Origin: an uncultured Clostridia bacterium
Lineage (GTDB): Bacteria; Bacillota; Clostridia; Oscillospirales; Ruminococcaceae
Length of the DNA: 37,647 nucleotides
NCBI GenBank assembly: GCA_947177735.1
Contig: CAMWVP010000013.1
Span: 1-37,647 of the forward strand
Direction of reading: 5' to 3'
In this document: positions 4,757 to 21,534 of the stretch, one piece after another
Layout: each line of letters opens with the position of its first letter
Numbering within the stretch: the stretch's first letter is position 1
Position numbers and translations under genes: made by a program
Notes under the pieces: generated by a model
Databases searched by the model: none
The model's input: the letters and a program-made list of their open reading frames with translations, nothing else
Told to the model about the DNA's origin: nothing

Positions 4757-7468
4757 TTAGCTGCCCGTAACGGTAAGCGCCTTGCTCCACTGCTCAACTA
4801 TGCTGAGACATTCGTCGATATCGCTGTCCGCCGCAGCCGCATTCAGACGCTCAAAGTATTCGGCGTTCTTATCAAAGTATTGGAATTTTGACATTTTGTC
4901 TGTTACCTCGTCGATTTGCAGAGTATCGAAATTGTCGAGCGCCTCTTGCATCTGCTCAAGCATATCTTTGATGTCATCCGTTTCGGCGGTACGTTTCTCG
5001 TCGTCGGACGCGTCGTCGAAGTATTTCTTTAACGCCTCGTGAAGCTGTAAATATTCCTCGATCATGCCGTCGGTTTTTTCGTTTATAAGCGCAATGTTTC
5101 CGTCGTTGCCCGCTTTTTCCAATTCCGCGGCTACCTCGGAAATGTGATCGGCTCCTATCTGCCGCGAGGTGTTCTTCAGCGAATGAACCTCGATCGTGTA
5201 ATTGCGCCAACGTGCCGACGCCTTATAATCGAGAATTATCTTAGCCTTTTTTTCGATAGCGTTGAAGTACTCCCTGAGCACCGTCCAGAAAAGCTTTTCG
5301 TTGCCGAGCAGGATAAGCGCGTTTTTGACGTTGAGCTCCTTGATATCCAACGCGCTGTAAGAGTTCTGAGACTTGTCCTCGGTCGAGGTCGGAGCTTCTA
5401 CGATAATATTGTCGTCCTTGCCGATCGGAATGATCTTTTCCGGCGGCAGCCACTTTCTGAGCTTTGAGAGCGCGTCCTTTATATCGATTGGCTTTGCAAT
5501 AAAGTCGTTCATGCCCTCGCGGATAAACATTTCCCGCGCGCCGCCGACGGCGTTTGCGGTAAGCGCTATGATCGGCACTTCCTTGTAGCCCGGGACAAGC
5601 CGTCTGATCACATGCATAGTCTCCACACCGTCCGCCTCGGGCATCATATGATCCATAAATATAAGATCGTACTTGGTGTTGCGGGTCATACCTATTGCCT
5701 CCGCCGCGCTTTGAGTCATATCGATCTTCATCTTCAGCGGTTCGAGAAGTCCCGACGCGACAATAAGATTGACGGAGTTATCGTCCACAATGAGAATATG
5801 CGCTTGGGGAGCTATAAACGAGAAGCAGTCGCTCTCGGACGAGCCGGTTTCAAAATCGATCTTGTGCAATCCCATCGCGTTGTACAGGCTGAGCGAATAC
5901 GCGGGCTTGCTTATCAGGCGGACGTTCGGGATATCTATCACGTCGAGGCTGTCGTATGATACAAGCACCAGGCACTGTATATCCGGATGGGCGACGATAA
6001 AATCCTGTATCTCTTGAGTAAAGAACCTCTTTCCGACAATGAAGTAATCTACATCCAGATTGTTGTACAACAAATTTCCGGCAAGGTCTACGTACTCCGC
6101 GCCGATACGATTCAGGTCGCGGATAAGCTGAGCCTTAACGTACCGGTTTTCCAAAAGCACCGCCGTTTTCAAGGGAGTTTCAAGCTGCGGCACCATGGGC
6201 GTAGAGTCAACGATCTTTTGCGGCACCTCGAAATAAAAGGCAGTACCCTTGTTGTATTCGCTCTTGACTGAGATCTCTCCGCCCATAAGCTGAAGCAGTT
6301 GCTGCGAGATCGCAAGTCCGAGACCCGTGCCTTCGATATTGCGGTTGCGCTTGCTGTCAACCTGCTGGAACGAGTTGAAGAGCTTGTGCATATCCTCTTT
6401 TTTAATGCCGATACCGGTGTCGCTGATCTCAGCTTTCATGATAACGGTATCCTCGTTCTGCGCCTCAAACCACAGTTTAAAATGAACCTCGCCCGCCTGG
6501 GTGAACTTGACCGCGTTTGTGAGCAGATTCAGAATTATCTGGTGGATCCTCACATTATCGCCGTAAAGCTTTTTCGGCATATCGGGTAAGATATCCATTG
6601 TAAACTCAATATCCTTTTCGCCGATACGACTGTTTATTATACTCGTCAGGTCCTGAACGACCGACAGCGGTTCATACTCGACCTCCACGATATCCATCTT
6701 TCCGGATTCGATCTTCGAGAAGTCCAAAATATCGTTGAGGATAACGAGCAGATTTTTGCTCGATGCTTTTATCTGATGTATGTATCCTCTTGCCGCGCGG
6801 GGCATATCCTCGCGCAGAGCAAGATCGGCGAGACCCATGACCGCGTTCATCGGCGTGCGTATCTCGTGGCTCATATTGGCAAGGAAATCGGACTTCAAAT
6901 GGGAAGCTTTTTCGATCTCAAGATTGATCTTGTGAAGCTCGTAGCTCTTATACGCGATACTCGAGAGCGTTGAAGCGATGACATACAGAAAATGCGCCGC
7001 CTTTTCGACCTGCGCCTTGCTCACCACGGGAACCCTTTTTACGGCTTCCTCGTATTCATCGGGGTCGATACCAAGCTTTGCGGCGGTTTTGCGGATACTC
7101 GGGATATCGGGCGGCTCGATGAGAACCTGTCCGCCGATAAAGCTTCCCACGATCTCGCCGTTCGCCATGATAGGCGCGGCAAAATCGACAAGCCCCGCGT
7201 GGCAGCGATAGGAGATCGAGCTTCCGTATCTTCGTGAGATCTCCGCGCCGTTTATATCGCAGCTCTCACACCGTTTACGTCCTATCTCGGTTGCGCGTGT
7301 GTGTTTCATACAGAAATCCGTAAAGCAGGAGCCGTTTGTTATCGCAATACCGTTGCTGTCCGTAGTAAGGCTTGCCATTCCCGTCATATCGGAAAACGCC
7401 TCCTGGATTTGTTGGAGGACTTTGGCGTCGATCAAATCGGTAAGATACAGTTTATTTTCGTTTTCCAT
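4757..7468 (-). CDS. Hybrid sensor histidine kinase with PocR domain
   Basis: A 903-residue cytoplasmic hybrid kinase with no membrane helix. Domains in order: PocR sensory domain (about 1-170, with Cys-rich CMKHT...RKRCESCD), a short coiled linker, HisKA with phospho-acceptor in SHEIRTPMN (His near residue 201), HATPase_c (N box, GIGIKKEDMHKLF, GTGLGLAI, about 300-420), a degenerate receiver-like segment, a true receiver (ILIVDDN, acceptor Asp near 605 in FMDHMMPE, KP pair) and a C-terminal HPt domain (His near 761 in VHSLKN). PocR domains are known to bind small ligands, often short hydrocarbons or sugar-like compounds; the ligand here is unknown. It is downstream of a stand-alone response regulator, the likely phosphorelay partner. 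Start 7468 is preceded by an in-frame TGA two codons upstream; its ribosome site (GAGGG, 12 nt away) is weak. Confidence 0.92.
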   Translation of the reverse strand: MENENKLYLTDLIDAKVLQQIQEAFSDMTGMASLTTDSNGIAITNGSCFTDFCMKHTRATEIGRKRCESCDINGAEISRRYGSSISYRCHAGLVDFAAPIMANGEIVGSFIGGQVLIEPPDIPSIRKTAAKLGIDPDEYEEAVKRVPVVSKAQVEKAAHFLYVIASTLSSIAYKSYELHKINLEIEKASHLKSDFLANMSHEIRTPMNAVMGLADLALREDMPRAARGYIHQIKASSKNLLVILNDILDFSKIESGKMDIVEVEYEPLSVVQDLTSIINSRIGEKDIEFTMDILPDMPKKLYGDNVRIHQIILNLLTNAVKFTQAGEVHFKLWFEAQNEDTVIMKAEISDTGIGIKKEDMHKLFNSFQQVDSKRNRNIEGTGLGLAISQQLLQLMGGEISVKSEYNKGTAFYFEVPQKIVDSTPMVPQLETPLKTAVLLENRYVKAQLIRDLNRIGAEYVDLAGNLLYNNLDVDYFIVGKRFFTQEIQDFIVAHPDIQCLVLVSYDSLDVIDIPNVRLISKPAYSLSLYNAMGLHKIDFETGSSESDCFSFIAPQAHILIVDDNSVNLIVASGLLEPLKMKIDMTQSAAEAIGMTRNTKYDLIFMDHMMPEADGVETMHVIRRLVPGYKEVPIIALTANAVGGAREMFIREGMNDFIAKPIDIKDALSKLRKWLPPEKIIPIGKDDNIIVEAPTSTEDKSQNSYSALDIKELNVKNALILLGNEKLFWTVLREYFNAIEKKAKIILDYKASARWRNYTIEVHSLKNTSRQIGADHISEVAAELEKAGNDGNIALINEKTDGMIEEYLQLHEALKKYFDDASDDEKRTAETDDIKDMLEQMQEALDNFDTLQIDEVTDKMSKFQYFDKNAEYFERLNAAAADSDIDECLSIVEQWSKALTVTGS

Positions 7469-7520
7469 AAATCACATACGCCCTCATGCTATATAAATAG
7501 CAAAATGAGGAACTCCTTTC

Positions 7521-7565
7521 AAAAAATCAGCCGCCTGTTTTGCATTATGCTGAACGGGTCGGCTG
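7521..7565 (-). terminator. Hairpin and T-run between response regulator and kinase
   Basis: On the minus strand CAGCCGACC pairs with GGCGGCTG and is followed by ATTTTTT. It lies in the 162-nt gap between the regulator and the kinase, so it could attenuate transcription and give more regulator than kinase. The stem has an internal mismatch and a long loop. Confidence 0.4.
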
Positions 7566-7630
7566 TATACACAAATATTTCGCGAACCGAAGTTCGTGCA
7601 GTCAAAAACAGCGCCTTTGCGTATTGCCGT

Positions 7631-8494
7631 TTAATCCGTAAGGGTTCTTATGGTCGCGGAAAGCATATCCATATCGATTGGCTTGAGCAAATAGCCGTGA
7701 GGCTTGAGCGACATAACCTCCATTATCTTTTTACGATCGGAAACGCCCGTTAAAAAGCATACCGGAATATGCGACGCTTTGGGATTATTCTTGATGCGTC
7801 TGAATATATCGGCGCCCGTTTCAATGGGCATTTCGTAATCGAGGATGATGAGATCGACTTTTTTCGTTTCGAGCAATTTATCCACCATTACGCCGTTTAT
7901 CATTGTGGTGATCTCGTATCTGTCACTGAGCGCGGATTTCAGCATCTTAAGAACGGTGCGGTCATCGTCCACGATGAGAATATGCTTTTTCTCGGCGTCG
8001 CCTGCAGCGGCTTTCGCTTCTTTCGCAGCGATCTCCGCCGCTTTCGCTTCGATAGCCGCCTGCTGCGCCTCCGCTTCGGTTTGCCGAACGAGCTCCTTTG
8101 CCTTGAGTTTTTCCTTTGCCTCTTCAACGTCGTCAAAATAGCGCGTTATTCTTAATGTAAGATTATCCGGAGAGACGGGGCGGCAGATAAGTACGTCTGC
8201 CGTGTATTTGGCGTTTTCCTCAATAAGGCTGCATGTTTCGGCGTCGCCGATAAGTACGATCGCAGCGCCGTTATAGCAGCTGTCCGTTTTCAGACTGCGT
8301 ATCTGATTGACCGTTTTTTCATAATCGCGATCCACAAAGCAAACGTATGCATCGGGAGCGAAAAGTTTAAAATGACCTAAAATGTCCTGTCGGCACTCCG
8401 ATGTGCTCAGCGTATGGAAAAACTCTTCGGTATACTGAATAAAGTCCATTAACAACGCATTGTTTCTGCCGCTTATCAAAACTTTGTATTTCAT
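7631..8494 (-). CDS. Response regulator with N-terminal receiver-like domain
   Basis: A 287-residue protein starting at ATG 8494, chosen because GAGGAG lies 5 nt upstream. Residues 1-120 (MKYKVLISGRNNALLMDF...) have a receiver-like pattern without the acidic pocket. Residues about 120-165 form an Ala/Glu/Lys-rich coiled coil. The C-terminal receiver (about 168-287) is complete: HILIVDDD, acceptor Asp near 218 in LIILDYEMP, FLTG and YLLKP. There is no DNA-binding or enzymatic output domain, so it probably passes phosphate on or acts by protein contact, perhaps with the HPt domain of the neighbouring kinase. It is the first gene of the two-component operon and has a consensus promoter at 8694-8722. 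Confidence 0.88.
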   Translation of the reverse strand: MKYKVLISGRNNALLMDFIQYTEEFFHTLSTSECRQDILGHFKLFAPDAYVCFVDRDYEKTVNQIRSLKTDSCYNGAAIVLIGDAETCSLIEENAKYTADVLICRPVSPDNLTLRITRYFDDVEEAKEKLKAKELVRQTEAEAQQAAIEAKAAEIAAKEAKAAAGDAEKKHILIVDDDRTVLKMLKSALSDRYEITTMINGVMVDKLLETKKVDLIILDYEMPIETGADIFRRIKNNPKASHIPVCFLTGVSDRKKIMEVMSLKPHGYLLKPIDMDMLSATIRTLTD

Positions 8495-8690
8495 AAAATC
8501 TCCTCTTAGTGAATGCTCTCGGCTTCGCAAGCAAAGTCCGTCTGCACAGAACTATACTTACCGGTATCATCAATCGTGTACCCACAGCGCGAAGCAAAAA
8601 TGTCCGATTATCGGATAAAGTTATCGGTCAACGACAGCCTCCGCAGGCGGTCTGCGCCGCTTAAATCCGTGTCAGCGAATCGCCGATAAC
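8495..8690 (-). other. About 190-nt untranslated leader of the two-component operon
   Basis: The mapped-looking promoter at 8694-8722 implies transcription start near 8686-8688 and a leader of about 190 nt. The leader is GC-rich, with several short complementary segments (GCGGCGCAGACCGCC, CCGATAACTTTATC, CCGATAATCGG). I cannot assign it to a known riboswitch class. Confidence 0.4.
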
Positions 8691-8693
8691 TAT

Positions 8694-8722
8694 ATTATAT
8701 CACATAAAATGTCGTTTGTCAA
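8694..8722 (-). promoter_or_regulatory. Sigma-A promoter of the two-component operon
   Basis: On the minus strand TTGACA (8717-8722) is followed by a 17-bp spacer and TATAAT (8694-8699), a perfect consensus preceded by TGTGA at the -10. Confidence 0.85.
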
Positions 8723-8849
8723 TCGTATTTGCTCAACAAGTTGCGGGGTATCAATTTCATTGGCAAACTTACAACCGGAAAAAAATACAATCTAATCTGC
8801 GAATATGCGGACAGTTGACTTTTTCCAGTAGAGCATTTATCCGCCGCAT

Positions 8850-8912
8850 ATCAATATAGAACAAAAACATATCAACCTAAAAGAGGAAATCGCGTTCAGA
8901 ATGTGATATAAT
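8850..8912 (+). promoter_or_regulatory. AraC-type direct-repeat operator and -10 of the fusion gene
   Basis: Two direct half-sites ATCAAtaTAgAAcA (8850) and ATCAAccTAaAAgA (8871) are 21 bp apart, two helical turns. The second ATCAA ends 31 nt before TATAAT at 8907-8912, with TGTGA just upstream. There is no good -35, as expected for an activator-dependent promoter. The same arrangement occurs at 17424-17486 and 17542-17602. Confidence 0.75.
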
Positions 8913-9002
8913 AACACTATACAGCAAATCCATAACACTTTGTGGATCATAGCAATGAAGCGGAATTTATTTGTTCCACGTAATAACAATGGAGGTATAC
9001 TA

Positions 9003-11273
9003 ATGAAAAAAAGACGATTGTTTTCCGCGATACTGATCGCCGCAATGGCGCTCACTATGACTGCCTGCGACGAAGAAACTCCTGTCAACCCCGGCAATAA
9101 CGGCTCGCCGGTCGCCGCTTCCACGCCGTCTTCGTTCGAAACAACCACTTCTTTTGAAGAAAATCAGGGCGTTAACGACGCTGTCGCGCAGATCACGGAC
9201 GGTCTGGATGACCCCGATCTTGAAGTAACAAAGCGCATAAAATGGATGGGTCATTACGATATCGACGAAACCACTGCCGGCGCCATTCTGTTCAAGAATA
9301 CATACGGCATTCCCGCAGAAGGCGATAATCCCGAAAGCGAGGGCAGAATATTCGAGTATTATAAGGTCGCGTACGCAGATCGTTACGATAAGCTCGGTGC
9401 CGCTATCTCATCCGGTGACTCTCCCGACCTGTTCCCATTTGATGCGCAGGATTACCCCTACGGCGTTCTTAAAGGACGATATCAGCCGATCGACGAGCTC
9501 ATTAATCTTGACAGCGCGAAGTGGCAATACACCAAAGAATTGATGGATCTGTACAAGCTTAACGGCAGATACTACTGTGCGTTCTGGGATGTTTCCATCA
9601 ACAACGTTATGTACTATCGCAAGTCGATGATAGAGGAAATCGCTGTGGAAGATCCAAGAGATCTTTTTAAAGCCGGAAAATGGACCTGGGATAAAGCGCG
9701 GAACTGCTCTACGTCGTTCACGGCACAGACCCCCCACAAGCTGTCGGAAAGCGCCGTAAAGGAAGTAAGCAGGCGGCTTGGCTCGTTTAAAACGCGCGAT
9801 GAAAAGCATATTCCAGAATTTCGGGATTACCTCGGCTGGTGCACATGGGACACTTTTTACGGGGCGGTCGATGAGGAAAAGGTCATAATAGGACTTGAAT
9901 CTTTTAAGAAAGCGGATTTTCCGCTTGGATTTATGATACTCGACGACGGCTCGTGGGACACCTATTATGACACTCTTAACAGCGCCGCCGCAAATCCGAA
10001 TAAATTCTCGGATGGTCTGCACGGACTTATCAAAAACGCCAAGGAGAATTACGGAATAAAAATTTTCGGCATATGGCACTGCTTCGAGGGCTACTGGGGC
10101 GGAATAAAGCCTGATGGCGAGGTCGCCAAAAAATACAGGCTCATCAAAAATGAAGCAAATATCCGACCATGGGAGGAAAAAGAGGTGATACAGGATATTT
10201 ACCTTATTCATCCCGATGAAGCGGAAAGGTTCTACGAGGAGCTTCATTCATATCTTCACGGCGAAGGCGTTGATATGCTGAAGATAGACGGTCAGTCCGC
10301 AATGGATCTTTTCACAAAAGGAAAAATCGGTCAGGGCGGATCAATGAAAAAATACCAGCAGGCAATGCAGAAGTCGGCGGAGAAATATTTCGGCAGCCGC
10401 GTTATTCACTGTATGTCCAACAGCAACGATGTGGCGTATAATATGCTTACCACAAACTGCTGGCGCAACAGCTATGACTATGCGCCAAAGGATATAAAAA
10501 TGCAGCAGGAGCATATCTACATCAACGCGATGAACGCAATGTGGTCACATACCTTTTCCGTTCCCGACTGGGATATGTTCCAGTCTCATTCGGCGGGCGC
10601 GGAGATCCATGCCGCGGCAAGAGCGATAAGCGGCGGACCGATATACGTATGCGATTATCCCGGAAAGCAGGATTTCGGTATATTTGAAAAGCTGGTAACG
10701 TCCGATGGGAAAACTCTCCGCTGCGACGCTTACGCGCTCCCGACCGAGGATTGTCTGTTCGTTGACCACCGCCGCGAAAAAAAGCTGCTAAAAATATACA
10801 ATTATTGCGGCAGCGTCGGAGTTCTGGGAATATTCAATTGCTGTTGTGATGAAAAAATCGCAGGGGAGCTTTCCGCAAGGGATATCCCCGATTTAGACGG
10901 CGAGAGGTTCGCGGTGTATTTCAACAGAACGGGCAAGCTTATATCGGCGGGAATAACCGATACTCTTCACGCCGAGATAACGGGGAGCGAGTATGAGCTT
11001 GTTTCGTTTTCGCCGATAACAAACGGGATTGCGCCGCTGGGGCTTATCGATAAATATAACAATTCCGCGGCAATAATAAGCCTTGCGGAAACCGACAGGG
11101 GAGTGACTGCGAAAATACGTGACGGGGGAAAAATAGGCTTCTATTGCGAAAAAGAACCCGTAAAAGTGCTTTGCTGCGGCGAAAAAGCGGAATATTTCTA
11201 CGACGGCGACACCGGAATGGTGATTGTAAATTCCGATAGGAGCGGCATAAACACAGTTGAAATATCCTTATGA
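9003..11273 (+). CDS. Chimeric lipoprotein: sugar-binding protein N-terminus fused to GH36 raffinose-synthase-like C-terminus
   Basis: A 756-residue protein starting at ATG 9003 (GGAGG 7 nt upstream). Residues 1-22 are a lipoprotein signal with lipobox LTMTAC. Residues 23 to about 232 match the first lobe of an ABC-transporter family 1 sugar-binding protein (ISSGDSPDLF, YQPIDELINL, VMYYRKSMIEE, GKWTWDKA). From about residue 235 the sequence changes to the catalytic part of a raffinose synthase/Sip1-type GH36: LGWCTWD (277-283), FMILDDG, the probable nucleophile in MLKIDGQS (Asp429), RNSYDY, PDWDMFQS and AISGGP. The binding protein's second half, the permeases expected in such operons and the GH36 N-terminal beta domain are all missing. 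The reading frame is intact. Whether the product is active is unknown; it would be secreted and membrane-anchored, unlike ordinary members of this GH36 group. Confidence 0.85.
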   Translation: MKKRRLFSAILIAAMALTMTACDEETPVNPGNNGSPVAASTPSSFETTTSFEENQGVNDAVAQITDGLDDPDLEVTKRIKWMGHYDIDETTAGAILFKNTYGIPAEGDNPESEGRIFEYYKVAYADRYDKLGAAISSGDSPDLFPFDAQDYPYGVLKGRYQPIDELINLDSAKWQYTKELMDLYKLNGRYYCAFWDVSINNVMYYRKSMIEEIAVEDPRDLFKAGKWTWDKARNCSTSFTAQTPHKLSESAVKEVSRRLGSFKTRDEKHIPEFRDYLGWCTWDTFYGAVDEEKVIIGLESFKKADFPLGFMILDDGSWDTYYDTLNSAAANPNKFSDGLHGLIKNAKENYGIKIFGIWHCFEGYWGGIKPDGEVAKKYRLIKNEANIRPWEEKEVIQDIYLIHPDEAERFYEELHSYLHGEGVDMLKIDGQSAMDLFTKGKIGQGGSMKKYQQAMQKSAEKYFGSRVIHCMSNSNDVAYNMLTTNCWRNSYDYAPKDIKMQQEHIYINAMNAMWSHTFSVPDWDMFQSHSAGAEIHAAARAISGGPIYVCDYPGKQDFGIFEKLVTSDGKTLRCDAYALPTEDCLFVDHRREKKLLKIYNYCGSVGVLGIFNCCCDEKIAGELSARDIPDLDGERFAVYFNRTGKLISAGITDTLHAEITGSEYELVSFSPITNGIAPLGLIDKYNNSAAIISLAETDRGVTAKIRDGGKIGFYCEKEPVKVLCCGEKAEYFYDGDTGMVIVNSDRSGINTVEISL

Positions 11274-11279
11274 TCGAAA

Positions 11280-11314
11280 AAGCTGTCCGCGTATGCAACA
11301 CACGCGGACAGCTT
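11280..11314. terminator. Bidirectional terminator between convergent genes
   Basis: A 13-bp perfect stem (AAGCTGTCCGCGT and complement) with a 9-nt loop lies between two convergent genes. It has ATATTATTT on one side and, on the other strand, TTTTCGATC, so it can serve both the fusion gene and the GH9 gene. Confidence 0.85.
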
Positions 11315-11317
11315 ATA

Positions 11318-13579
11318 TTATTTACTTGTGGCAAGCGCAGTGTTAAATACCATGACCGCGTTCCAGTATATCGCGTTCTCGTTGGTGACCCAGTCGTTTG
11401 CGCTGTCGTAATAGCATTTAAGAGGGAAATGCGAGATTATCCCGCCGTCATAGGAATTAACTCCGCCCGGCATATAGCCCGAGGGAACTCCGTCGGGGGA
11501 ATCACCGTAGTAAATGTTGCTGTAGGTACATTTTATCGGGTCTTCGCCCATGCCCGTTATAAAGCATTTGCGCACCGCGTTCACGCCTGTGATGAAGTTG
11601 ACGGCGTCCTGCGAAACCTTCTCGGCGTCCGACTTGTCAAGCCCGAGCAGCGAGCAGCCGATGTACATTTCCTGAGCGTTGCCGAGGATCATATTGAAGC
11701 TGCCCCACCAGAAGCTCCATTCGTTTATCGCGATACTCCACGGATTGGCCTTATACCTGTCAAGAACGGAGCGTTTCCAGCCCTCGAACTGTCTCGATAT
11801 TTCCGAGACCGCTTCCTCATCGCGGTTTTCGCAAAGCAAATAGGTATAATAGCCGTAAATTCCCATGTTACCGACATTATGACAGTTTGTTCCCGAGTTC
11901 AAAGAGCCGGTGAACATATCGTAATTTTTGAGGAACCAATTATGGGCGCTTTCGCTCTCCGTCGCGTAATATACGCACGCCGAAGCCCAGAAAGCGGAGC
12001 TTGAATTGTTTTCGCCCGAGTAATTTGTTGAGGTGTAGATGTTCGGATTTTCTTCGATATATGCCCAGCCTCTTTCGGCTGCCGCAAGCAGCGTATCCGC
12101 GTAATCGGAGTCGTGTTCTCTGAAGATCTTTGATGCAAACGCCAGCACGGCCGTACAGTCGGCGGTGGAATTGGTGATACACTTGTCGCCGTCGCCCACC
12201 CAGACTGTTCTGTCTCCGTCATCGTCGTTCTCGCTCTTTGATTTTACCTTGATATAAAAGCCGCCGCTCTTGTCCTGCATTTTTAACAGGAAATCAAGCT
12301 CAACGCGAACCTCGTCAAGGATATCCGGAATACCGTTCCCGCTTTCGGGGATATTATTTTGTCCGTCGGAAAAGCTGTCGGGGAACATCAGATAAGTCCA
12401 GAGCAGCGTGTTCGCCGCTGTAGCTCCCGGGCTTACGTACTTACCCACGTCTCCCGCGTCATACCAGCCGCCCGATACGTCGATCTTCACATCGCTGTCA
12501 TAGGAGAGCGGCGCTTCAAAGTCCTTCGGTGTCACATCGGAGCGTGTGTATTTCCCTCCGTACTCTGCAGTGATCTCCTCGTTGGCTCTCTGGTAATAGT
12601 AATAGCGCATGGTGCTTTTCAGCAGCTCGTCATAAACGCTCTCGGATATTTCAAACGAAAGGGAATCGCCAATGCCGTCCGCTCGGAGATAATAACTCCC
12701 CTCGACTCCGAAATCCGAAAAATCCGCACAAAGGATCTGCTCGCCCGAATATTTCTCGTCAAACTCGCTTACCATAGAAAGCTGCCCGGAGAAAACCGCC
12801 TCGCCCGTGGATTTGTCAACAAGCTCAAAGGCATCGCCCTCGTATACGGCGAGTTTCTCGGGAAAGCCGCTCACCAGAGCACGCTTTTCGGAATCGGGCT
12901 TGTAACCGAGCTGGTTTACTTTAAACTCGGGGAATGACTTTTCCTTGTCGGGGGCGCTTATAGTGATATTTCTTACTTGAATGCCCTTGCCGCCGACAAG
13001 AAACTGTCTTGCGCAGGAAAGATCCGTCTCTCCGGCTATTTCCGCGAGCGGTATCGTTACGCTCTTCCATTCGGAGGTTATCTCCGTGTCAAAAATTTTC
13101 GTAACGCTTACGCTCTGCTTGTTCCTCGTTTCCTCAAAGCCTATTTCAAGGCTTTCGCCGCCTTCAGTTCCCTTTACCTCAAGAGAAACATAACCGTTCG
13201 GAACGTAAAGCGACAGATCGGTCGAAGTCCAGCCCCGAAGCACGATCACGGATGGAGATTTGCTCAGCGTAATATAAGGGAAATCCGATTGATCCTCGGA
13301 CGGTCGAAGAACCGAAATGGCGTTTCCGTCGGGCTTTTCCTTGCCGAGAACGGTTATTGTCTGCAAGGTGTTGTATTCCGCGTCGATAAGCTGCAAAAGG
13401 ACTTCTCGGTCGGTTCGCGCCTTTTCCGCGAGTTCGTTATCCACCGTTTGAGAAATCGACGAATCTCCCGCCGCGGAATCGGTGTAGCTCTCGTCCGAGC
13501 CTCCGCTTTCTCCCGCGCAGCCCGATATTATTGACAAAATAATCGACATAGCTATTACTCCTGAAATTTTTCTTTTCAT
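11318..13579 (-). CDS. GH9 family glycoside hydrolase lipoprotein
   Basis: A 753-residue lipoprotein (MKRKIS, hydrophobic segment, lipobox IISGC). Order: Ser/Asp-rich linker; a carbohydrate-binding-like beta region (about 60-220); an N-terminal Ig-like cellulase domain (FKVNQLGYKPDSEKRALV, about 225-310); and a GH9 (alpha/alpha)6 barrel (about 320-753). The catalytic base lies in GGWYDAGDVGKYVSPG (Asp pair near residue 370) and the acid in NENAIYWN (Glu near 730). GH9 enzymes are inverting endo- or exo-acting beta-glucanases; the exact substrate cannot be read from sequence. The usual C-terminal histidine motif is not obvious. It is divergent from the AraC gene. A TTGATATAAT -10 at 13635-13640 on the minus strand lacks both a good -35 and the shared operator. 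Confidence 0.88.
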   Translation of the reverse strand: MKRKISGVIAMSIILSIISGCAGESGGSDESYTDSAAGDSSISQTVDNELAEKARTDREVLLQLIDAEYNTLQTITVLGKEKPDGNAISVLRPSEDQSDFPYITLSKSPSVIVLRGWTSTDLSLYVPNGYVSLEVKGTEGGESLEIGFEETRNKQSVSVTKIFDTEITSEWKSVTIPLAEIAGETDLSCARQFLVGGKGIQVRNITISAPDKEKSFPEFKVNQLGYKPDSEKRALVSGFPEKLAVYEGDAFELVDKSTGEAVFSGQLSMVSEFDEKYSGEQILCADFSDFGVEGSYYLRADGIGDSLSFEISESVYDELLKSTMRYYYYQRANEEITAEYGGKYTRSDVTPKDFEAPLSYDSDVKIDVSGGWYDAGDVGKYVSPGATAANTLLWTYLMFPDSFSDGQNNIPESGNGIPDILDEVRVELDFLLKMQDKSGGFYIKVKSKSENDDDGDRTVWVGDGDKCITNSTADCTAVLAFASKIFREHDSDYADTLLAAAERGWAYIEENPNIYTSTNYSGENNSSSAFWASACVYYATESESAHNWFLKNYDMFTGSLNSGTNCHNVGNMGIYGYYTYLLCENRDEEAVSEISRQFEGWKRSVLDRYKANPWSIAINEWSFWWGSFNMILGNAQEMYIGCSLLGLDKSDAEKVSQDAVNFITGVNAVRKCFITGMGEDPIKCTYSNIYYGDSPDGVPSGYMPGGVNSYDGGIISHFPLKCYYDSANDWVTNENAIYWNAVMVFNTALATSK

Positions 13580-13602
13580 TATTTCCTACCTTTCTGTTGT
13601 AC

Positions 13603-13631
13603 TTGACCGCAAAGCATTTTTATGTTATAAT
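13603..13631 (+). promoter_or_regulatory. Sigma-A promoter of the araC-type gene
   Basis: TTGACC (13603-13608), a 17-bp spacer and TATAAT (13626-13631). It overlaps the probable GH9 -10 on the opposite strand (13635-13640), so the two divergent promoters may compete. Confidence 0.8.
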
Positions 13632-13664
13632 TTAATTATATCAAGAATAAGGAGTTGTTTCCGA

Positions 13665-14495
13665 ATGGACGCGATCAAACTTGAGCTTCCCGAGGACTGC
13701 CGCGGCGGCTGCGGATTTCTTCATCAGCACAGCGTGGCTGAAACCTATCCGCTTCATTATCATGCAGACTTTTACGAGTTTTTCTTTGTCGTAAAGGGAA
13801 AGGCTATCCACTTTATAAACGGCGAGAACAGGCTGCTTACGCGCGGCTCGCTGGTATTCATTCGCCCGGGAGACAGCCACAGCTATGAGAGCTTCAACAA
13901 GCATGATTTTGAGCTTGTCTCGATTGGATTTCCCATTAACGAATTTGAGAGCGCCTGCGCGTTCATGGGAATATGCCCTCTCCTGTTTACCGAAAGCAGC
14001 TTTCCGCCGGACATGGTGCTTGACGGCTATGACCTGGCGGACGTTGAACGCAAGCTGCTTCATATCGGTCTGCACACATCTCCCGATGAACGCAAGCTCT
14101 ATTTCAGAGGACTTCTGCCGTTTATTCTTTACAGAATACTTTCGGACGGAGCGGAGCAGAGCGCGGCTATTCCCAACCGTCTGCGCATACTTCTCAATAA
14201 AATGAACGACAAGGATAATTTCACCGAGGGTCTGCCAAAACTGCTGGAACTTTCCGGAACATCGCAGGAGCATCTTACCCGCGAGTTCCGGAAATACCTG
14301 AATATGACCCCGACGGAGTTCATCAATCAGAAGCGTATAAGCTATGCCGCAGAGCTTCTTTTGAACAGCTCTCATGAGATAATCGACATTTGCTTTATTT
14401 GCGGCTTCAACAGTCTCAGTCACTTTTATCATATCTTTAAAGCAACCTACGGCTGTTCACCGAAGCAGTTTATCAGGGAACACCCAAGCTCTTAG
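13665..14495 (+). CDS. AraC family transcriptional regulator with cupin domain
   Basis: A 276-residue regulator; AAGGAG lies 10 nt before ATG 13665. The N-terminal half is a cupin ligand domain (YPLHYHADFYEFFFVVKGKA, LLTRGSLVFIRPGDSHSYE). The C-terminal third holds two AraC helix-turn-helix units (LPKLLELSGTSQEHLTREFRK; IIDICFICGFNSLSHFYHIFK) ending in the family signature YGCSPKQFIRE. Such proteins are usually activators that respond to a sugar and bind direct repeats near -35. The gene sits among four glycosidases, three of which carry matching direct repeats, so it is the obvious candidate regulator. Its stop codon overlaps the stop of the convergent GH31 gene by 4 nt. Confidence 0.93.
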   Translation: MDAIKLELPEDCRGGCGFLHQHSVAETYPLHYHADFYEFFFVVKGKAIHFINGENRLLTRGSLVFIRPGDSHSYESFNKHDFELVSIGFPINEFESACAFMGICPLLFTESSFPPDMVLDGYDLADVERKLLHIGLHTSPDERKLYFRGLLPFILYRILSDGAEQSAAIPNRLRILLNKMNDKDNFTEGLPKLLELSGTSQEHLTREFRKYLNMTPTEFINQKRISYAAELLLNSSHEIIDICFICGFNSLSHFYHIFKATYGCSPKQFIREHPSS

Positions 14496-17377
14496 GCTTC
14501 CTCTATCTCGATCCAGTTTGCACTCAGCTTTCCGCTGTGAACGAGCAGCCGTACCACCTGTTCTCCCTCACCAAGCGTTATGGGCGCGGAGGATACCGTC
14601 TGCCATTTATCTCCTTGTGTTTCCATGATCTCCGTGCTGTTCTGCGAATCAATATCAACGCTTATATCGGCGCTGCCGCGAACACGGAGCCTGAACACAT
14701 ACTCGCATGCCTTTCTTACGTTTACGGTATATTCCAGCCACTCGCCGCCGACCAGATTCTTTACATTGTAGCCGACGCCGACATCATCACAAAGTTCGAT
14801 AATTACGCTGTCCATACGGTATATCTCGCTTTTTGTATCGGTCAGCCTGTGATAGGAAATGCCCTCGCCGCCGCGGTCGTAGTTCTCGCAGTTTATCCTG
14901 CACGGAGCGCTTGCCGGCGGAAGCAGGAACGGGAGCTGCCCGCACAGCTGCACCTCCTCGGAGTTTTCGGAGGGCTTTATTATTGCCGCTCCTTTTGTGA
15001 TAACAAGCTCTTCAAGAACCTCTTTATCCGCGGGAATTTTAACATACAGCACGCCGTTGAACTTGTCGAAAAACCGACCGCTCTCCGCCTTTTCGGCGCG
15101 GCGCTTATATCCGTAATAATCAAGCTCTTTTCCGCCGAGGGTGACTGTTTTCGGCTCCGCGTCCACATAAATTTCAAGAAAGTATTCATCTGCCGCATAC
15201 AGAAGATTGGAGCGAGAGATGGCGATACGCGTCTCCGTTTCATTGTCCTCACACTCGATATGAGTAATGGTAAAATCGCCGCGCTCAAATTCGTAGCTTG
15301 TTCCGTCATCGGTGTACATATCAAAGCTGCTCTTTCCGCTCGGATATATTTTCAGATCGATATGTTTCCAGTCTATATCATTCGTGTGGTACACTTGTTT
15401 TGTCATAGGAATGATTGAGCCGCCCTTTGCGAAAACGGGTATTCTGTTCTGCGGAGCGTATACTGTATAGCTTCTGCCGCCCTCGTAGCAATAGCCGTGA
15501 TCCCAGTCATACCACTTTCCTTTCGGGAAATACACTTCTCTCTCGGTCGCCTTTTCCTCAATTACGGGCGCGACAAGCAGCTCGCTTCCGAACAGATATT
15601 CGTCCCTGATGTCGAGAACGTTTTTGTCATCGGGATACTCGAATACCAATGCTCTCATCATCGGTGCTCCCGTGATATGCGCGTTGCAATTATAAGAGTA
15701 TATGTAGGGCAGCAGGCGATATCTCAGACGTACATAACGCGCGGCACTGTCGGTAAGCAACTCTCCGAAAACAAACGGCGAGGACTGACCTGCATGGTGA
15801 ACTCTTGTTATAGGGCAGAAGCAAGCGAATTGCAGCCAGCGTTCGTATAACGCAGCATGAGCCGCGGGATCGTTTTTATATATGTTTTCATTGTAAAGGC
15901 TGTTGTTCGTGGCGGACATAAACCCGCCGCTGTCGCTTGTCCAGAGCGGTATTCCCGACATGGCGGTGTTCAGAGCCTCTGGGATATGCGCGGAGAAGGT
16001 CTTGTAATCGGAAAATACGTCGCCCGACCATATTGCGGCGTTGTATTTCTGTATTCCCGCGGTTCCGGTTCTCGTAAGGATAAACGGGCGCTTGTTATTG
16101 TTATATTCGAGCGTTATTTCGTTATAAAGTCTGACGTTCATCAGGCAGAACGGATTGTGTACCTTTGCTTTATCGCCGCCGTAATACTGCGTTCCGTCGG
16201 GGTCTCCCTCGGGTTCGGTAAGATCAAGCCACCAGCTCTCGACACCATCGTCAAGCACTCTGTTTAACTGTGGCTGTATCCATTGCTTCATTGCGGGGTT
16301 GCTGAAATCCATCAGCTCGCCGCCGTAATGCCCGCAGGTGACGGTATTTCCGTCCTTGTCCTTTGCGAGTATACCAGCGTCAAGCGCGCTCTGGAAATTA
16401 TCGCTGTCTTTGCGGATCATGGGACCCGAATTGGATATCATAAAGTGAATCCCTTGATTGCGATATTCGGCTATTTTTCGCGGGCTGTCGCCGTTCCAGC
16501 GCTTGTTCCATTTGAAGTTGTGGAAATTCTCCGCCCAATCGTAATCGAACACTATGCAGTCCAACGGAAAGTGTTTTTCGTCCAGCGTTTCGATGATCTC
16601 ATCGATCTCGTCCCAGCACCAATAGGAGCATTTACACTGAATGTAGCCCAGCGTCCACAGCGGGGGAAGCGAGGGTTTTCCGGTAAGATCGGTGTACTCG
16701 CCGAGAATATCCGCAAATCTGTCACCGCAGAAGAAATACTGAACGAAGCTTCCGCCCTCCGCACGCCAGAAATACTCATTGTCTTTGGTTTTTCCAATAT
16801 CGAAAGACATTCTGTAACTGTTGTCAACAAAAATGCCATAAGGCGCGCTTCCGCCTGTGCTCATGAAAAATGTAACGGGAATGTCCGCGGTGACATGACC
16901 GATATTTATACGCTGACCTGTCACCATATCCCTTGTTGTACCGCGCCTGTCCATGCTTCCGAGATAACCGTCGTTATCCTCGCCAAGCCCGTATAAATGC
17001 TCGCTTGCCGCCATATTATGCGCGCAGTACAGCGAACCGTCATCGTTACGGCATATCTCATTTTCGGAGGAAAGCACAATACCGTTCCGAAGATAATCAA
17101 TGCGGGTATTATGCTTGCTGAGCCTTACGGAAAGCTCCTTTGAGGAAACGACAAAGCTATCGTCCGTCTCGGTAATATCAACGTTGGACAGAACCTCGGG
17201 GAGCCTTTCAACAGCGTAGGAGCTATCCGGTTCGGAATTGCCGCTGAAATCCACGTACAGCCCTGCTGTTTTGTCGGAAATTAATGTTACAACAATGCGG
17301 GCGCTCCGATCTGTCCGAAATGTAACAGCGTTTCCGTTTTTTCGGAAATCGATAATGTTAAGTTCGCTTAATTTCAT
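14492..17377 (-). CDS. GH31 family alpha-glycosidase with C-terminal CBM-like domain
   Basis: A 961-residue protein. I choose ATG 17377 because the GGAG serving it lies 6 nt upstream and overlaps an earlier ATG (17389) that has no ribosome site. There is no signal peptide, so it is probably cytoplasmic. Domains: N-terminal beta-sandwich (about 1-210), GH31 barrel with nucleophile in WWLDLTEPEGD (Asp near 385) and acid/base in WSGDVFSDY (Asp near 453), C-terminal beta domains, then a jelly-roll domain resembling CBM6/35 (about 830-961, NCENYDRGGEGISYH, GGEWLEYTVNV, ANWIEIEEA). GH31 enzymes are retaining alpha-glucosidases, alpha-xylosidases or transglycosylases; which one this is cannot be said. 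The promoter region carries the shared direct-repeat operator. Confidence 0.92.
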   Translation of the reverse strand: MKLSELNIIDFRKNGNAVTFRTDRSARIVVTLISDKTAGLYVDFSGNSEPDSSYAVERLPEVLSNVDITETDDSFVVSSKELSVRLSKHNTRIDYLRNGIVLSSENEICRNDDGSLYCAHNMAASEHLYGLGEDNDGYLGSMDRRGTTRDMVTGQRINIGHVTADIPVTFFMSTGGSAPYGIFVDNSYRMSFDIGKTKDNEYFWRAEGGSFVQYFFCGDRFADILGEYTDLTGKPSLPPLWTLGYIQCKCSYWCWDEIDEIIETLDEKHFPLDCIVFDYDWAENFHNFKWNKRWNGDSPRKIAEYRNQGIHFMISNSGPMIRKDSDNFQSALDAGILAKDKDGNTVTCGHYGGELMDFSNPAMKQWIQPQLNRVLDDGVESWWLDLTEPEGDPDGTQYYGGDKAKVHNPFCLMNVRLYNEITLEYNNNKRPFILTRTGTAGIQKYNAAIWSGDVFSDYKTFSAHIPEALNTAMSGIPLWTSDSGGFMSATNNSLYNENIYKNDPAAHAALYERWLQFACFCPITRVHHAGQSSPFVFGELLTDSAARYVRLRYRLLPYIYSYNCNAHITGAPMMRALVFEYPDDKNVLDIRDEYLFGSELLVAPVIEEKATEREVYFPKGKWYDWDHGYCYEGGRSYTVYAPQNRIPVFAKGGSIIPMTKQVYHTNDIDWKHIDLKIYPSGKSSFDMYTDDGTSYEFERGDFTITHIECEDNETETRIAISRSNLLYAADEYFLEIYVDAEPKTVTLGGKELDYYGYKRRAEKAESGRFFDKFNGVLYVKIPADKEVLEELVITKGAAIIKPSENSEEVQLCGQLPFLLPPASAPCRINCENYDRGGEGISYHRLTDTKSEIYRMDSVIIELCDDVGVGYNVKNLVGGEWLEYTVNVRKACEYVFRLRVRGSADISVDIDSQNSTEIMETQGDKWQTVSSAPITLGEGEQVVRLLVHSGKLSANWIEIEEA

Positions 17378-17423
17378 ATTTTTCTCCATTCTGTGATGTT
17401 ATTCGCCAACTTGCGTTAAGTCT

Positions 17424-17486
17424 ATTATATCAAAGTTTAAATGAAAAATCTTCTGTTGGATTGATATGTTTTTGTGACATGTTGAC
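17424..17486 (-). promoter_or_regulatory. AraC-type direct-repeat operator and -10 of the GH31 gene
   Basis: On the minus strand half-sites GTCAA (starting 17486) and ATCAA (starting 17465) are 21 bp apart. The second ends exactly 31 nt before TATAAT (17424-17429) preceded by TTGA. The 15-mer ACAAAAACATATCAA is identical to that upstream of the fusion gene at 8861-8875. Confidence 0.75.
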
Positions 17487-17541
17487 ATTTGCGAAAATGT
17501 TTGAATTAATTTTTTGTCAAATACGGTTTACTTTAAATAAA

Positions 17542-17602
17542 ATCAATACAGAACAAATAAATCAATAAAAAAGAAGTTTTTTTAAAACTCTTATGATATA
17601 AT
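17542..17602 (+). promoter_or_regulatory. AraC-type direct-repeat operator and -10 of the GH127 gene
   Basis: Half-sites ATCAAtAcAgAAcA (17542) and ATCAAtAaAaAAgA (17561) are 19 bp apart. The second ATCAA ends 31 nt before TATAAT (17597-17602), with ATGA just upstream. The spacing to the -10 is the same as in the other two promoters of the set. Confidence 0.72.
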
Positions 17603-17778
17603 TAAGGCAGCACCGCACAAAGATCGCGCTTCGCGTTTTGTTGCCCGCTTAATTTCAAATTATTCCGTCGATTTGCCAAAATTCCCTCATAGGCGACAGC
17701 TTATTCATCGATTTTGTGCAATTCTGCAAAAAAAGTCCTATGTAATCGGGTAACTGTCTTTATGCGGTATTGCATTAA
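17601..17778. mobile_element. MITE-like element with terminal inverted repeats
   Basis: The ends GGCAGCACCGCACAAA (from 17606) and, inverted, GCAATACCGCATAAA (from 17773) form imperfect terminal inverted repeats. Extended to 19 positions, 15 match. The 168-bp body is flanked by the direct repeat ATTAA (17601-17605 and 17774-17778), a possible target duplication. There is no open reading frame of note. It lies between the GH127 -10 and its start codon, so it is transcribed as leader RNA. Confidence 0.6.
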
Positions 17779-17804
17779 AATGTAAATCAATATAGGAGGT
17801 TACT

Positions 17805-19631
17805 ATGCTTAAACAATTTGATAAAGGACAAGTTAATGTCCTGTCGGGAATTTTCAGAGATAGAATGAACATTAACAGAAACTATCTGATGGAGCTTGAC
17901 TCAACCTGTCTGCTTCAGAATTTCTACCTTGAAGCGGGTATTGAGATGCCAGGGCTTCAGGTTGTCGACGACCCTGCTTCTGCAAAGCTTCATTGGGGGT
18001 GGGAAGCGCCTACCTGTCAGTTAAGAGGGCATTTTCTCGGACATTGGCTTTCTGCCGCGGCCGCATTGGTCGCCAATGAAAACGATACGGAACTGAAAGT
18101 AAAGCTGGATAAAATTATTTCCGAGCTTGCAAGATGTCAGCAGTTGAACGGAGGGGAATGGGTCGGTTCTATACCCGAAAAATATTTTAAAAAAATGGCG
18201 GATGATCAGCAGGTATGGTCGCCGCAGTATGTAATGCACAAAACGCTCATGGGGCTTACCGACGCATACATATACACGGGAAATAATCAGGCGCTTGAAA
18301 TAGTCGATCATCTGAGCGACTGGTATGTACGCTGGACAGACATCATGCAGAAAGGAAATCCCAATGCCGTTTACAAGGGCGAGCAGGGTGGAATGCTTGA
18401 AGTATGGGCGGAGCTTTATGAAATTACACACAATGAAAAATATATGCGGCTCGTAAAGTGTTATTGGAACAACGGGTGGTTTGCCCGACTTGACAATGGC
18501 AGTGACGTGCTATCCAATGACCATGCAAACGCGAGCATTCCTCTTTCTCACGGTGCGGCAAAGGTTTATGAGGTAACGGGCGATGAGAGATGGCGGGAGC
18601 GTGTTGAGCAGTTCTGGAAATGCGCTGTAACCGACAGAGGAATGTACTGTACAAGCGGACAGAATGCGGGGGAATTCTGGATACCGCCTTTTAAACAAGG
18701 ACAGTTCCTTTGTGAGCGTAATCAAGAATTCTGTACAGTCTACAATATGGTGATAACGGCTCAATATCTTTTGAAATGGACGGGTGACGTCCGTTATGCG
18801 GATTATATTGAAAGATGTCTTTACAATGGATTTCTTGCTCAGCAGAACCCCACAACGGGCACACCGACGTATTTTCTTCCTCTCAAATCGGGAAGTCGAA
18901 AAAAATGGGGAAGCAAGACCCACGATTTTTGGTGCTGTCACGGAACTATGGTTCAGGCGCAGACTTTGTATCCCGAGCTTATCTATTTCAGGAACGACGC
19001 GAGTGATTCGATCATTGTCAGTCAGTACATACCGTCAACGCTCAAATGCCGTCTTAAAGATTCCGATATTTCTATTGAACAAACAACAGATATGAAGTCC
19101 TACAACAGTCAGGTCTTTTTCGATGAACAAAGCGGAGGGGAAATATCAAGGTGGTCTCTTAAGTTTGATATATCCTCTTCCGAACCAAAGGAATTTACAT
19201 TGTCCTTGCGCATACCATGCTGGGTAAAGGGCGAACCTTTTGTAACGCTCAACGGTCGGAAGTCGGAAAATGTGAATGTTGAAAACGGCTGGCTGAATAT
19301 AAAAAAGCAGTGGTCCGGTGATACTTTGCAAATACTGTTTTCAAGCGGTGTTGTTATGGAAACTCTTCCGGATAGAAGTGACCTTTCGGCGGCTGTAGAC
19401 GGTCCTATCGTTCTTGCGGGACTTACCGACAGCGATTGCGGACTGATCGGTGATTTTGACGATCCGGATACATTTATGTATCCTCAAACCGAGCATATAT
19501 ACGATACATATCCGTGGAAACAAAATTGTTATGTCACAAAGCATCAGTCGAAAAATATCCTTTTCAAGCCGCTTTATGAAATTACTGACGAAACCTATAC
19601 AGTTTATTTCACCCATAAGGAAATGAAATAG
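17805..19631 (+). CDS. GH127-type beta-L-arabinofuranosidase (DUF1680 family)
   Basis: A 608-residue protein with AGGAGG 5 nt before ATG 17805 and no signal peptide, so probably cytoplasmic. It matches the beta-L-AFase family (Pfam Glyco_hydro_127) over its length: LRGHFLGHWLSAAA near the N-terminus, then an (alpha/alpha)6 barrel and C-terminal beta domains. The metal-thiolate active site of characterised GH127 enzymes (Glu, Cys, Cys-Cys) is recognisable as NQEFC and FWCCHGT. Known members release L-arabinofuranose, but related GH146 and uncharacterised DUF1680 proteins differ, so the substrate is uncertain. It has an activator-type promoter and a long leader containing a MITE. It ends at the terminator at 19685-19727. 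Confidence 0.88.
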   Translation: MLKQFDKGQVNVLSGIFRDRMNINRNYLMELDSTCLLQNFYLEAGIEMPGLQVVDDPASAKLHWGWEAPTCQLRGHFLGHWLSAAAALVANENDTELKVKLDKIISELARCQQLNGGEWVGSIPEKYFKKMADDQQVWSPQYVMHKTLMGLTDAYIYTGNNQALEIVDHLSDWYVRWTDIMQKGNPNAVYKGEQGGMLEVWAELYEITHNEKYMRLVKCYWNNGWFARLDNGSDVLSNDHANASIPLSHGAAKVYEVTGDERWRERVEQFWKCAVTDRGMYCTSGQNAGEFWIPPFKQGQFLCERNQEFCTVYNMVITAQYLLKWTGDVRYADYIERCLYNGFLAQQNPTTGTPTYFLPLKSGSRKKWGSKTHDFWCCHGTMVQAQTLYPELIYFRNDASDSIIVSQYIPSTLKCRLKDSDISIEQTTDMKSYNSQVFFDEQSGGEISRWSLKFDISSSEPKEFTLSLRIPCWVKGEPFVTLNGRKSENVNVENGWLNIKKQWSGDTLQILFSSGVVMETLPDRSDLSAAVDGPIVLAGLTDSDCGLIGDFDDPDTFMYPQTEHIYDTYPWKQNCYVTKHQSKNILFKPLYEITDETYTVYFTHKEMK

Positions 19632-19684
19632 GCGGCGTTTTGTTTTCAAAAATTGAGCCGCATAAAACAAAGAATAGACGTGAC

Positions 19685-19727
19685 AAATAGCTGAGATGGC
19701 GAAATACCACCTCAGCTATTTTATTTG
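19685..19727 (+). terminator. Terminator of the GH127 gene
   Basis: AAATAGCTGAG pairs with CTCAGCTATTT, and inner TGG with CCA, followed by TATTTG. It lies 54 nt after the GH127 stop codon. Confidence 0.75.
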
Positions 19728-19776
19728 CGGATATCACTACTCTTAGTTTGTTCATCCTATTTCCTCCAAAGCAGAA

Positions 19777-19868
19777 AACCGCAGACTGCCAAATCCAGCC
19801 TGCGGTTAGTTGTTGTGTAAAGAAAAAAAGCTACATCCTTGTGCATTTTGCACTAAAAATGTAGCTTT
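19777..19868 (+). terminator. Two further hairpins after the GH127 gene
   Basis: AACCGCAG (19777) pairs with CTGCGGTT (19800). AAAGCTACAT (19827) pairs with ATGTAGCTTT (19859) after an A-run. Both look like transcription terminators or parts of the structured region that follows. Confidence 0.4.
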
Positions 19869-19896
19869 CAACTTGCGACACTTTTACCAAAAAGAT

Positions 19897-20018
19897 TTGA
19901 GCCTCAGCCGCCTATTGTCGGTGAATGGCTCTGCGTTGTTTTTCACGGTCTCGCAAAGCGAGATCGCGGACGACAGTCCGCGAAGTAAAAAACAATGCCG
20001 CTAAAGAGCTGAGGTCAA
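19897..20018. other. Nested stem-loop region without a gene
   Basis: The outer helix TTGAgCCTCAGC (19897) with GCTGAGGTCAA (20008) encloses a second helix of 11 pairs (19933-19943 with 19988-19998, core TTGTTTTT/AAAAACAA). That helix holds two perfect hairpins side by side: TCTCGC-AAA-GCGAGA (19949-19963) and CGCGGAC-GACA-GTCCGCG (19965-19982). It may be a structured RNA or a small DNA repeat. The whole gap 19632-20352 contains no convincing protein gene. Confidence 0.5.
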
Positions 20019-20048
20019 GCCTGCAGGGTGCAGACCGAAGCCTTTAGC

Positions 20049-20093
20049 GTAATACGAAATCGCCCTTGTTTTGCAAGGGCGATTTCGTATTAC
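20049..20093 (-). terminator. 20-bp perfect hairpin abutting the tRNA fragment
   Basis: GTAATACGAAATCGCCCTTG pairs perfectly with its complement around a 5-nt loop. On the minus strand it starts directly after the CCA of the tRNA fragment at 20094-20113, so it is probably the tRNA gene's terminator. Confidence 0.6.
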
Positions 20094-21483: not shown

Positions 21484-21534
21484 AAAAACACCTCCGATGA
21501 GATTAATCGCGCAAATTTCATTGGAGGTGTTTTT
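21484..21534 (-). promoter_or_regulatory. Hairpin sequestering the integrase ribosome site
   Basis: On the minus strand AAAAACACCTCC pairs perfectly with GGAGGTGTTTTT, which ends directly at the integrase ATG. The 3' arm contains its Shine-Dalgarno and a five-T run, so the structure may block translation, terminate transcription, or both. Confidence 0.6.

Follow-up and report, generated by a model that had tools for sequence, protein, structure and literature searches.

What switches on a cluster of glycosidase genes when three of its promoters share one element and none has a good -35 hexamer? The question is raised by a stretch of 37,647 nucleotides (hereafter the window) from an uncultured Clostridia bacterium of the Ruminococcaceae (assembly GCA_947177735.1, contig CAMWVP010000013.1). 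In the window, three genes for glycoside hydrolases (GH), namely a solute-binding protein (SBP)-GH36 fusion, a GH31 and a GH127, are each preceded by two direct-repeat half-sites, the outer H1 and the inner H2, and by an extended -10; the same cluster holds a gene for an AraC-family regulator. This operator is most likely recognised by the AraC-family protein encoded within the cluster, and we predict with considerable confidence that the three promoters form a regulon activated by that protein (13665-14495). Because the same element adjoins relatives of this AraC in other bacteria, the regulon is very probably a new one of a known kind, a sugar regulon of classical build.

Three promoters and one operator

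A sequence-only reading of this DNA had proposed that a five-base half-site, RTCAA (R being A or G), is repeated before the three genes at a set distance from the -10, and all of its measurements hold. The boxes are spaced by 21, 21 and 19 bp before the fusion gene, GH31 and GH127; from the second box to TATAAT the distance is exactly 31 nt in each promoter, where the -10 context reads TGATATAAT; and the 15-mer ACAAAAACATATCAA is common to two of them, at 8861 (plus strand) and 17475 (minus strand), with no other copy in the window. The lack of a good -35 was borne out too, the best hexamer at 16-18 nt scoring 3, 2 and 1 of 6. By contrast, TTGACA-17-TATAAT occurs in perfect form at a promoter-like site of the minus strand (8722-8694). 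What had to be revised is the size of the half-site: the five-base box is real, but it is merely the first of two boxes in a half-site of about 17 bp. The three promoters thus show what is expected of a class II AraC-type arrangement, both in the direct repeat with a period of about 21 bp and in the position of H2 over the -35 region of a promoter with a poor -35.

The element is also rare in the genome from which the window comes. The full pattern, RTCAA-N13..17-RTCAA-N29..33-TATAAT, which was taken from the window sites themselves, has four matches in the whole genome (3,355,233 bases); three are the window promoters and the fourth lies on contig C15, while the reversed control has none. The looser pattern ATCAA-N31-TATAAT is weak on its own, since it has 12 matches in the genome against two in the control; with one mismatch allowed it has six matches in the window, compared with a shuffled mean of 1.9, and two of 100 shuffles reach six. 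A profile built from five close sites, in whose training set the three window sites are included, gives these three E values of 4.2e-10 or lower in their own genome, and the next match has E 0.0027. A random scatter of the motif over the genome, which the earlier reading had named as the result that would speak against it, was therefore not seen. The match at E 0.0027 (C122) was taken as chance, and its stretch shows no RTCAA repeat; another weak match on another contig (C33, E 0.0049 with a profile of 11 sites from other genomes) was likewise put down to chance.

Sites from other genomes point the same way. The 10 foreign sites of one matrix had been picked because they resembled the window sites or by inspection of the DNA next to the regulator; with this matrix, the three window sites ranked first, second and third in the window (36.3, 29.6 and 27.6, the next match scoring 10.1). 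In the genome-wide search at E<=0.01 with the profile of 11 foreign sites, the site at 8850 was the top match (E 1e-5).

The operator beside AraC homologues

If the operator belongs to the AraC of the cluster, the two should be found together elsewhere. Homologues of this AraC at E<=1e-27 occur in 16 of 394 genomes of the order, its own included, and 80 named loci came from one scan of a genome collection. Among 36 same-genus genomes searched, none has an AraC match at E<=1e-20; likewise, 36 other genomes, 22 from this genus, yielded no strong operator, and three of them have a match, the best with E 0.002. The matrix of the three window sites gave strong matches adjoining the regulator in many loci of the order.

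This co-occurrence was put into numbers on 96 loci (100 minus the four duplicates L084, L087, L088 and L092). Each locus was scored with matrices that omit its own group, and passed if at most one of 100 first-order Markov sequences was as good. Within 600 bp of araC, the operator was found in 21 of 29 other loci in which the AraC is at least 30% identical over 200 or more residues, and in three of the remaining 66 (L073, L104 and L127), where identity is below 30% or fewer than 200 residues align; L073, at 29.96%, only just falls in the second group. The window locus passes as well, its stretch having been set by hand to 13065-17700, which makes the count 22 of 30 with the window and 21 of 29 without it. 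The genome of L078 has a second strong site (C24), but it lies in a stretch that nearly duplicates the first (3038 of 3066 bases), and the two were counted as one. Together with the genome pattern count and the foreign-site matrix, this co-occurrence with the regulator led us to reject a chance origin of the three sites.

Homologues with the same type of operator adjoin GH38 alpha-mannosidase genes at L067, L068, L070 and L073, and at L063 such an operator stands before a D-lyxose isomerase gene.

Anatomy of the operator

A comparison of 27 sites, in which the -10 was sought over 10-55 nt without preference, gives a more complete picture of the element. The outer half-site is mostly RTCAATATA-N3-5-AA. 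For the inner half-site the usual sequence is RTCAA(T)-N-AGAAGA, whose terminal GA stands 19 nt ahead of the -10; its first box is often poor in L090 and in six sites spaced by 22 bp. While the spacing between the half-sites varies from 19 to 22 bp, a -10 at 31 nt from the inner half-site is the sole best in 22 of the 27 sites and is tied in one more, the exceptions being L082 (29 nt), L086 (30 nt), L090 (36 nt) and L089. If transcription starts 7 nt past the -10, the inner half-site would cover about -48 to -32 and the pair would be centred near -50.5. A fixed inner and a drifting outer distance are what one would expect if only the inner subunit makes contact with RNA polymerase and the outer one serves as an anchor.

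These foreign sites also bear on the thought that the three window sites are alike through recent copying of promoter DNA within the cluster, and not through selection on an operator. The exact 15-mer common to two of the sites is what one would expect of copying. The sites differ outside the boxes, however, and much the same boxes and distances are seen in genomes whose AraC is 30-51% identical, so that copying is largely refuted and we consider it very improbable.

On the side of the protein, residues 200-203, which we take to lie in the recognition helix of the first helix-turn-helix (HTH), read [ST]-x-[EN]-[HY] in all 25 homologues that have an operator, and mostly S-P-[SV]-[AS] in the 71 loci without a site. 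Of these 25 loci, L068, L069, L078 and L082 were added by hand; the others scored 17 or more. In a tree of 53 rows (the 25 with a site and the first 28 of at least 28% identity without one), 16 of the 17 rows of the close clade have a site; the tree has many unsure long branches, and it needs six label changes overall, a number that none of 500 shuffles was low enough to match.

Which protein reads the operator

Taken together, the operator beside 21 of 29 homologues against 3 of 66, the conservation of the GH31 operator in relatives described below, and the shared [ST]-x-[EN]-[HY] argue for the small regulon of the AraC at 13665 that had been proposed from the letters of the window. The protein itself is of the right kind. 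Its HTH domain is that of the AraC/XylS family (HTH_18 E 1.5e-22, HTH_AraC E 8.5e-20 in Pfam), and its N-terminal cupin, a predicted sugar sensor, is typical of the carbohydrate subgroup (AraC_binding E 2.3e-11, Cupin_2 E 9.6e-08).

There are several observations that weigh against this assignment. Eight of the close homologues lack an operator within 600 bp (L065, L066, L078, L081, L082, L091, L095 and L096). In two of them the site stands before GH31, at a distance from araC of about 5.4 kb (L078) and 3 kb (L082); at L081 the homologue (4648-5562, 49% identity) is split into two frames and, unlike its sister loci L079 and L080, has no operator within that distance; the misses at L065, L066, L091, L095 and L096 have no explanation. 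A locus with an AraC of 29% identity beside a GH38 gene (L072) fails, three of 100 Markov sequences being as good. With the model called R2, one of 13 source genomes (G178, the source of L063) has no site at E<=0.02, and in G348 matches elsewhere outscore the one beside its L073 regulator. The foreign sites were first found with the matrix of the three window sites, in a scan that had a built-in preference for 31 nt, and because of this seeding the foreign-matrix test is not fully independent. The GH31 and GH127 sites were not found at E<=0.01 by the genome-wide profile of 11 foreign sites, and they are the weaker ones by that profile, as only the 8850 site was found. As for the recognition residues, E at position 202 also occurs in seven of the 71 loci without a site, and at residues 200-203 ancestry and recognition are confounded and cannot be separated here.

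Could the element belong to another regulator, with araC being a mere neighbour? Candidates are at hand: the genome has 20 matches to the AraC at first look, of which a single one reaches E<=1e-20, and the neighbouring 4757-8530 encodes a receiver protein together with a PocR-type hybrid kinase. These two-component proteins were rejected as regulators because Pfam shows no DNA-binding domain in the receiver protein (7631-8530). A response regulator, or some other AraC-type protein, is an improbable reader as well, given that the operator tracks the relatives of this AraC from locus to locus and seldom occurs close to distant AraC proteins.

It is also worth asking whether the AraC represses the three promoters. 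ChbR, another member of the family, is an activator and a repressor alike. AraC itself is dual-natured at araBAD (PMC7408454), so a dual role can be imagined. Repression is nevertheless unlikely: the sites lie upstream of the -10, over a missing -35, which is an activator's place, and there is no usable -35.

Activation by the AraC of 13665 would then proceed as follows. The araC gene would be transcribed from an ordinary promoter of its own. Binding of a plant-polysaccharide-derived sugar by the cupin domain would lead two subunits to occupy H1 and H2; the subunit on H2 would cover the place of the -35 (about -48 to -32), contact RNA polymerase, and substitute for the missing hexamer, while H1, as a mere anchor, may drift by a base or two. 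As the outcome, GH31, GH127 and the GH36 fusion would be switched on, and perhaps GH9 by read-through.

The cluster and the probable recruitment of two of its genes

The features of the cluster are collected in Table 1.

Table 1. Coordinates of the genes, half-sites and promoter elements of the glycosidase cluster in the window.
Feature	Position	Strand	Remarks
H1, outer half-site before the SBP-GH36 fusion gene	8850..8866	+	ATCAATATAGAACAA; found by the foreign-site matrix
H2, inner half-site before the SBP-GH36 fusion gene	8871..8887	+	ATCAACCTAAAAGAGGA; 21 bp from H1
Extended -10 of the fusion gene	8904..8912	+	TGATATAAT; TATAAT 31 nt past the RTCAA box of H2; best -35 3/6
SBP-GH36 fusion, target gene	9003..11273	+	Pfam SBP_bac_8 and Raffinose_syn (raffinose-synthase-like)
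GH9 with CelD_N and CBM30	11318..13579	-	without own operator; beyond araC, on the same strand as GH31
araC promoter-like TTGACC-N17-TATAAT	13603..13631	+	11/12 matches
AraC-family regulator, proposed activator	13665..14495	+	cupin sensor and HTH; Pfam AraC_binding, HTH_18, HTH_AraC
GH31 with C-terminal CBM35/CBM6-like domain, target gene	14492..17389	-	Pfam; end overlaps the araC end by 4 bp
Extended -10 of GH31	17424..17432	-	TGATATAAT
H2, inner half-site of the GH31 operator	17449..17465	-	ATCAATCCAACAGAAGA; conserved in L078 and L082
H1, outer half-site of the GH31 operator	17470..17486	-	GTCAACATGTCACAA; 21 bp from H2
H1, outer half-site of the GH127 operator	17542..17558	+	ATCAATACAGAACAA
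H2, inner half-site of the GH127 operator	17561..17577	+	ATCAATAAAAAAGAAGT; 19 bp from H1
Extended -10 of GH127	17594..17602	+	TGATATAAT
GH127, target gene	17805..19631	+	Pfam; start about 200 nt past own -10

The fusion gene encodes a chimera. Over residues 4-232 the protein looks like the N-terminal half of an ABC solute-binding protein, and another frame of the genome, 544 residues long, encodes a protein with 50% identity to this part; residues 244-613 match galactinol-sucrose galactosyltransferase 6 (7exf). The best match of the GH31 protein among solved structures is 6jr6, a GH31 "candidate alpha-glycosidase", with alpha-xylosidases lower in the list.

The closest relatives are L078 (88% identity for AraC, 90% for GH31 and 82% for GH9) and L082 (82% for AraC and 80% for GH31). 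In both of them, the operator stands out as a conserved island before GH31 that takes in the -10 and the first part of the leader, whereas a blastn search there with 171 bases of upstream sequence yielded no match at E 1e-3. In the more distant L085 and L059 (AraC 38-40%), araC and GH31 are codirectional with the operator between them, and L085 also has a GH9. On account of this arrangement and of the operator in all four loci, araC-GH31(-GH9) is read, by comparison of the sequences, as the core of the regulon.

The fusion gene has no counterpart in the L078 or L082 genome at E<=1e-20, and a search of 99 other relatives with its GH36 part gave a single match (31%) at the same threshold. Orthologues of GH127 in four genomes (G012, G019, G020 and G393; 55-64% identity) showed no operator in the 1500 upstream bases fetched. 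The fusion and GH127 were therefore probably recruited into the regulon, which suggests that new genes can join an existing araC-GH31 regulon by gaining one promoter element. Horizontal transfer would fit the patchy spread, the high identity to L078 (a metagenome-assembled genome labelled Lachnospiraceae), and a G+C content of 0.477 compared with 0.437 for the window. A plasmid copy of 8600-20200 was rejected, since megablast gave no match.

GH9 and the antisense regulator gene

The sequence-only reading had observed that the GH9 promoter has the same extended -10 without the repeat, and had suggested that it may be regulated differently. The motif is indeed present (TTGATATAAT, minus strand 13644-13635), but the suggestion may need revision, because GH9 directly follows GH31 in L078 and L085, and the gene may be read from the GH31 operator.

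In the window, GH31 and GH9 lie on the minus strand with araC, on the plus strand, between them, which is the gene order of a noncontiguous operon, an opposite-strand gene standing within the unit. GH9 may thus be driven by the GH31 operator via read-through across the antisense araC. One scan lists no terminator-like site between 14655 and 12320 on the minus strand, and our own scan of 14700-13560 found none; both scans are simple and insensitive, and ours found none behind GH9 either. A weak terminator-like site within the end of GH31 (14675-14656, minus strand) weighs against read-through. In favour of separate regulation from an own extended -10 promoter at 13644 (minus strand) one can cite, besides this weak site and the insensitivity of both scans, the presence of TGATATAAT at the GH9 side. 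That -10, however, stands back to back with the -10 of araC, and a similar inverse TATAAT is found in L078 even though its GH9 is on the other side of araC. With GH9 placed directly behind GH31 in two relatives, read-through is somewhat more likely, and a separate promoter is a serious contender that we put slightly behind it.

A related arrangement is seen at three loci where the regulator is divergent from a pyruvate-formate-lyase-like (PFL-like; glycyl-radical enzyme) gene. At L058:8797-8859 (plus strand), L083:8849-8911 (minus strand) and L094:8840-8902 (minus strand; from Anaeromassilibacillus senegalensis An867), the operator lies at the 3' end of araC; it overlaps the last 7 bases of araC, points back through araC toward the PFL-like gene, and has a -10 (TATGAT) at exactly 31 nt. 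No other operator was detected in any of these three genomes at E<=0.02, with a model that had these sites among its training data. At L060 and L086, which have the same kind of target gene, the operator is at its usual place between the two genes. In L058, L083 and L094 the promoter thus seems to lie on the far side of araC, which would place araC antisense within the leader of its own target.

Both arrangements bring up a tentative idea. In the window, a transcript of GH31 driven by the operator would enter araC antisense, since the ends of the two reading frames overlap, and may reach GH9. The activator gene would then lie antisense inside the unit that it activates, in the window as in L058, L083 and L094, and activation of the target would silence the activator, a negative feedback arising from gene order. 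We hold this to be possible and rather doubtful. If so transcribed, an antisense-embedded activator would make a simple self-limiting circuit.

Neighbouring features

A mobile element may adjoin the glycosidase cluster: in 20353-32648 (minus strand), a phage-type integrase stands just past GH127, followed by thymidylate synthase, an interrupted reductase, a DNA methylase and an IS605-type transposase. The reductase gene (anaerobic ribonucleotide reductase, 26166-29216, minus strand) is interrupted by about 0.9 kb with a NUMOD4-HNH endonuclease reading frame (27372-27875), as in a homing intron. In the promoter leaders of the cluster no known RNA family was found; the only Rfam match in the window at the gathering score is far off, a RAGATH-18 RNA at 31446-31518 (minus strand; 67.9 bits against a gathering score of 44.9).

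Comparison with known systems

How does this regulon compare with those already described? By the curated cut-offs of NCBIfam, the window protein is not ChbR, RhaS or AraC. Its best full-length matches are the AraC-family sugar sensors ChbR and RhaS, with 93.3 and 80.2 bits over the sensor and DNA-binding domains, and these are far under the cut-offs of 264 and 288; for AraC itself it scores 28.4 bits against an equivalog cut-off of 208. The araBAD operator presumably differs in sequence from that of the window. The likeness to the I1-I2 site of E. coli AraC at araBAD is one of layout: both have two direct-repeat half-sites partly over the -35 region. At araBAD these half-sites are centred at -52.5 and partly overlap the -35 (PMC7408454), compared with a centre of about -50.5 by geometry for the window operators.

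Also comparable are the AraC-family rhamnose regulators of Bacillales, Bacteroides and Enterococcus. In a comparative-genomics study, they are given a direct-repeat motif of 21-bp periodicity, the motif of each group being described as unique (PMC3870299); the likeness to the window is one of periodicity. For Caldicellulosiruptor bescii, a study reports AraC-family sites that are tandem repeats upstream of promoter elements, taken as a sign of activators, and names AxuRS and XylQ as AraC-family local regulators of alpha-xyloside genes, for a transporter and a cytoplasmic alpha-xylosidase (PMC8579813). By this description, family and placement of the repeats liken them to the window. As to the gene order around GH9, the noncontiguous operon menE-menC-MW1733-ytkD-MW1731 of S. 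aureus has an opposite-strand gene between the genes of the unit (PMC7154746), as araC stands between GH31 and GH9. The difference is that the interspersed gene of the window would be the activator of the unit, and that co-transcription in the window is putative.

A name for the operator or for this AraC subfamily was not found in the open-access papers and passages covered by the search. Genes for glycyl-radical enzymes and glycoside hydrolases are the neighbours of the subfamily, which occurs mostly in gut-type Firmicutes; with a concrete operator and a testable recognition stretch, its targets therefore become predictable in uncultured genomes. The design itself is familiar: direct repeats of 21-bp periodicity just upstream of promoter elements are a known way of AraC-family sugar regulators (PMC3870299, PMC8579813).

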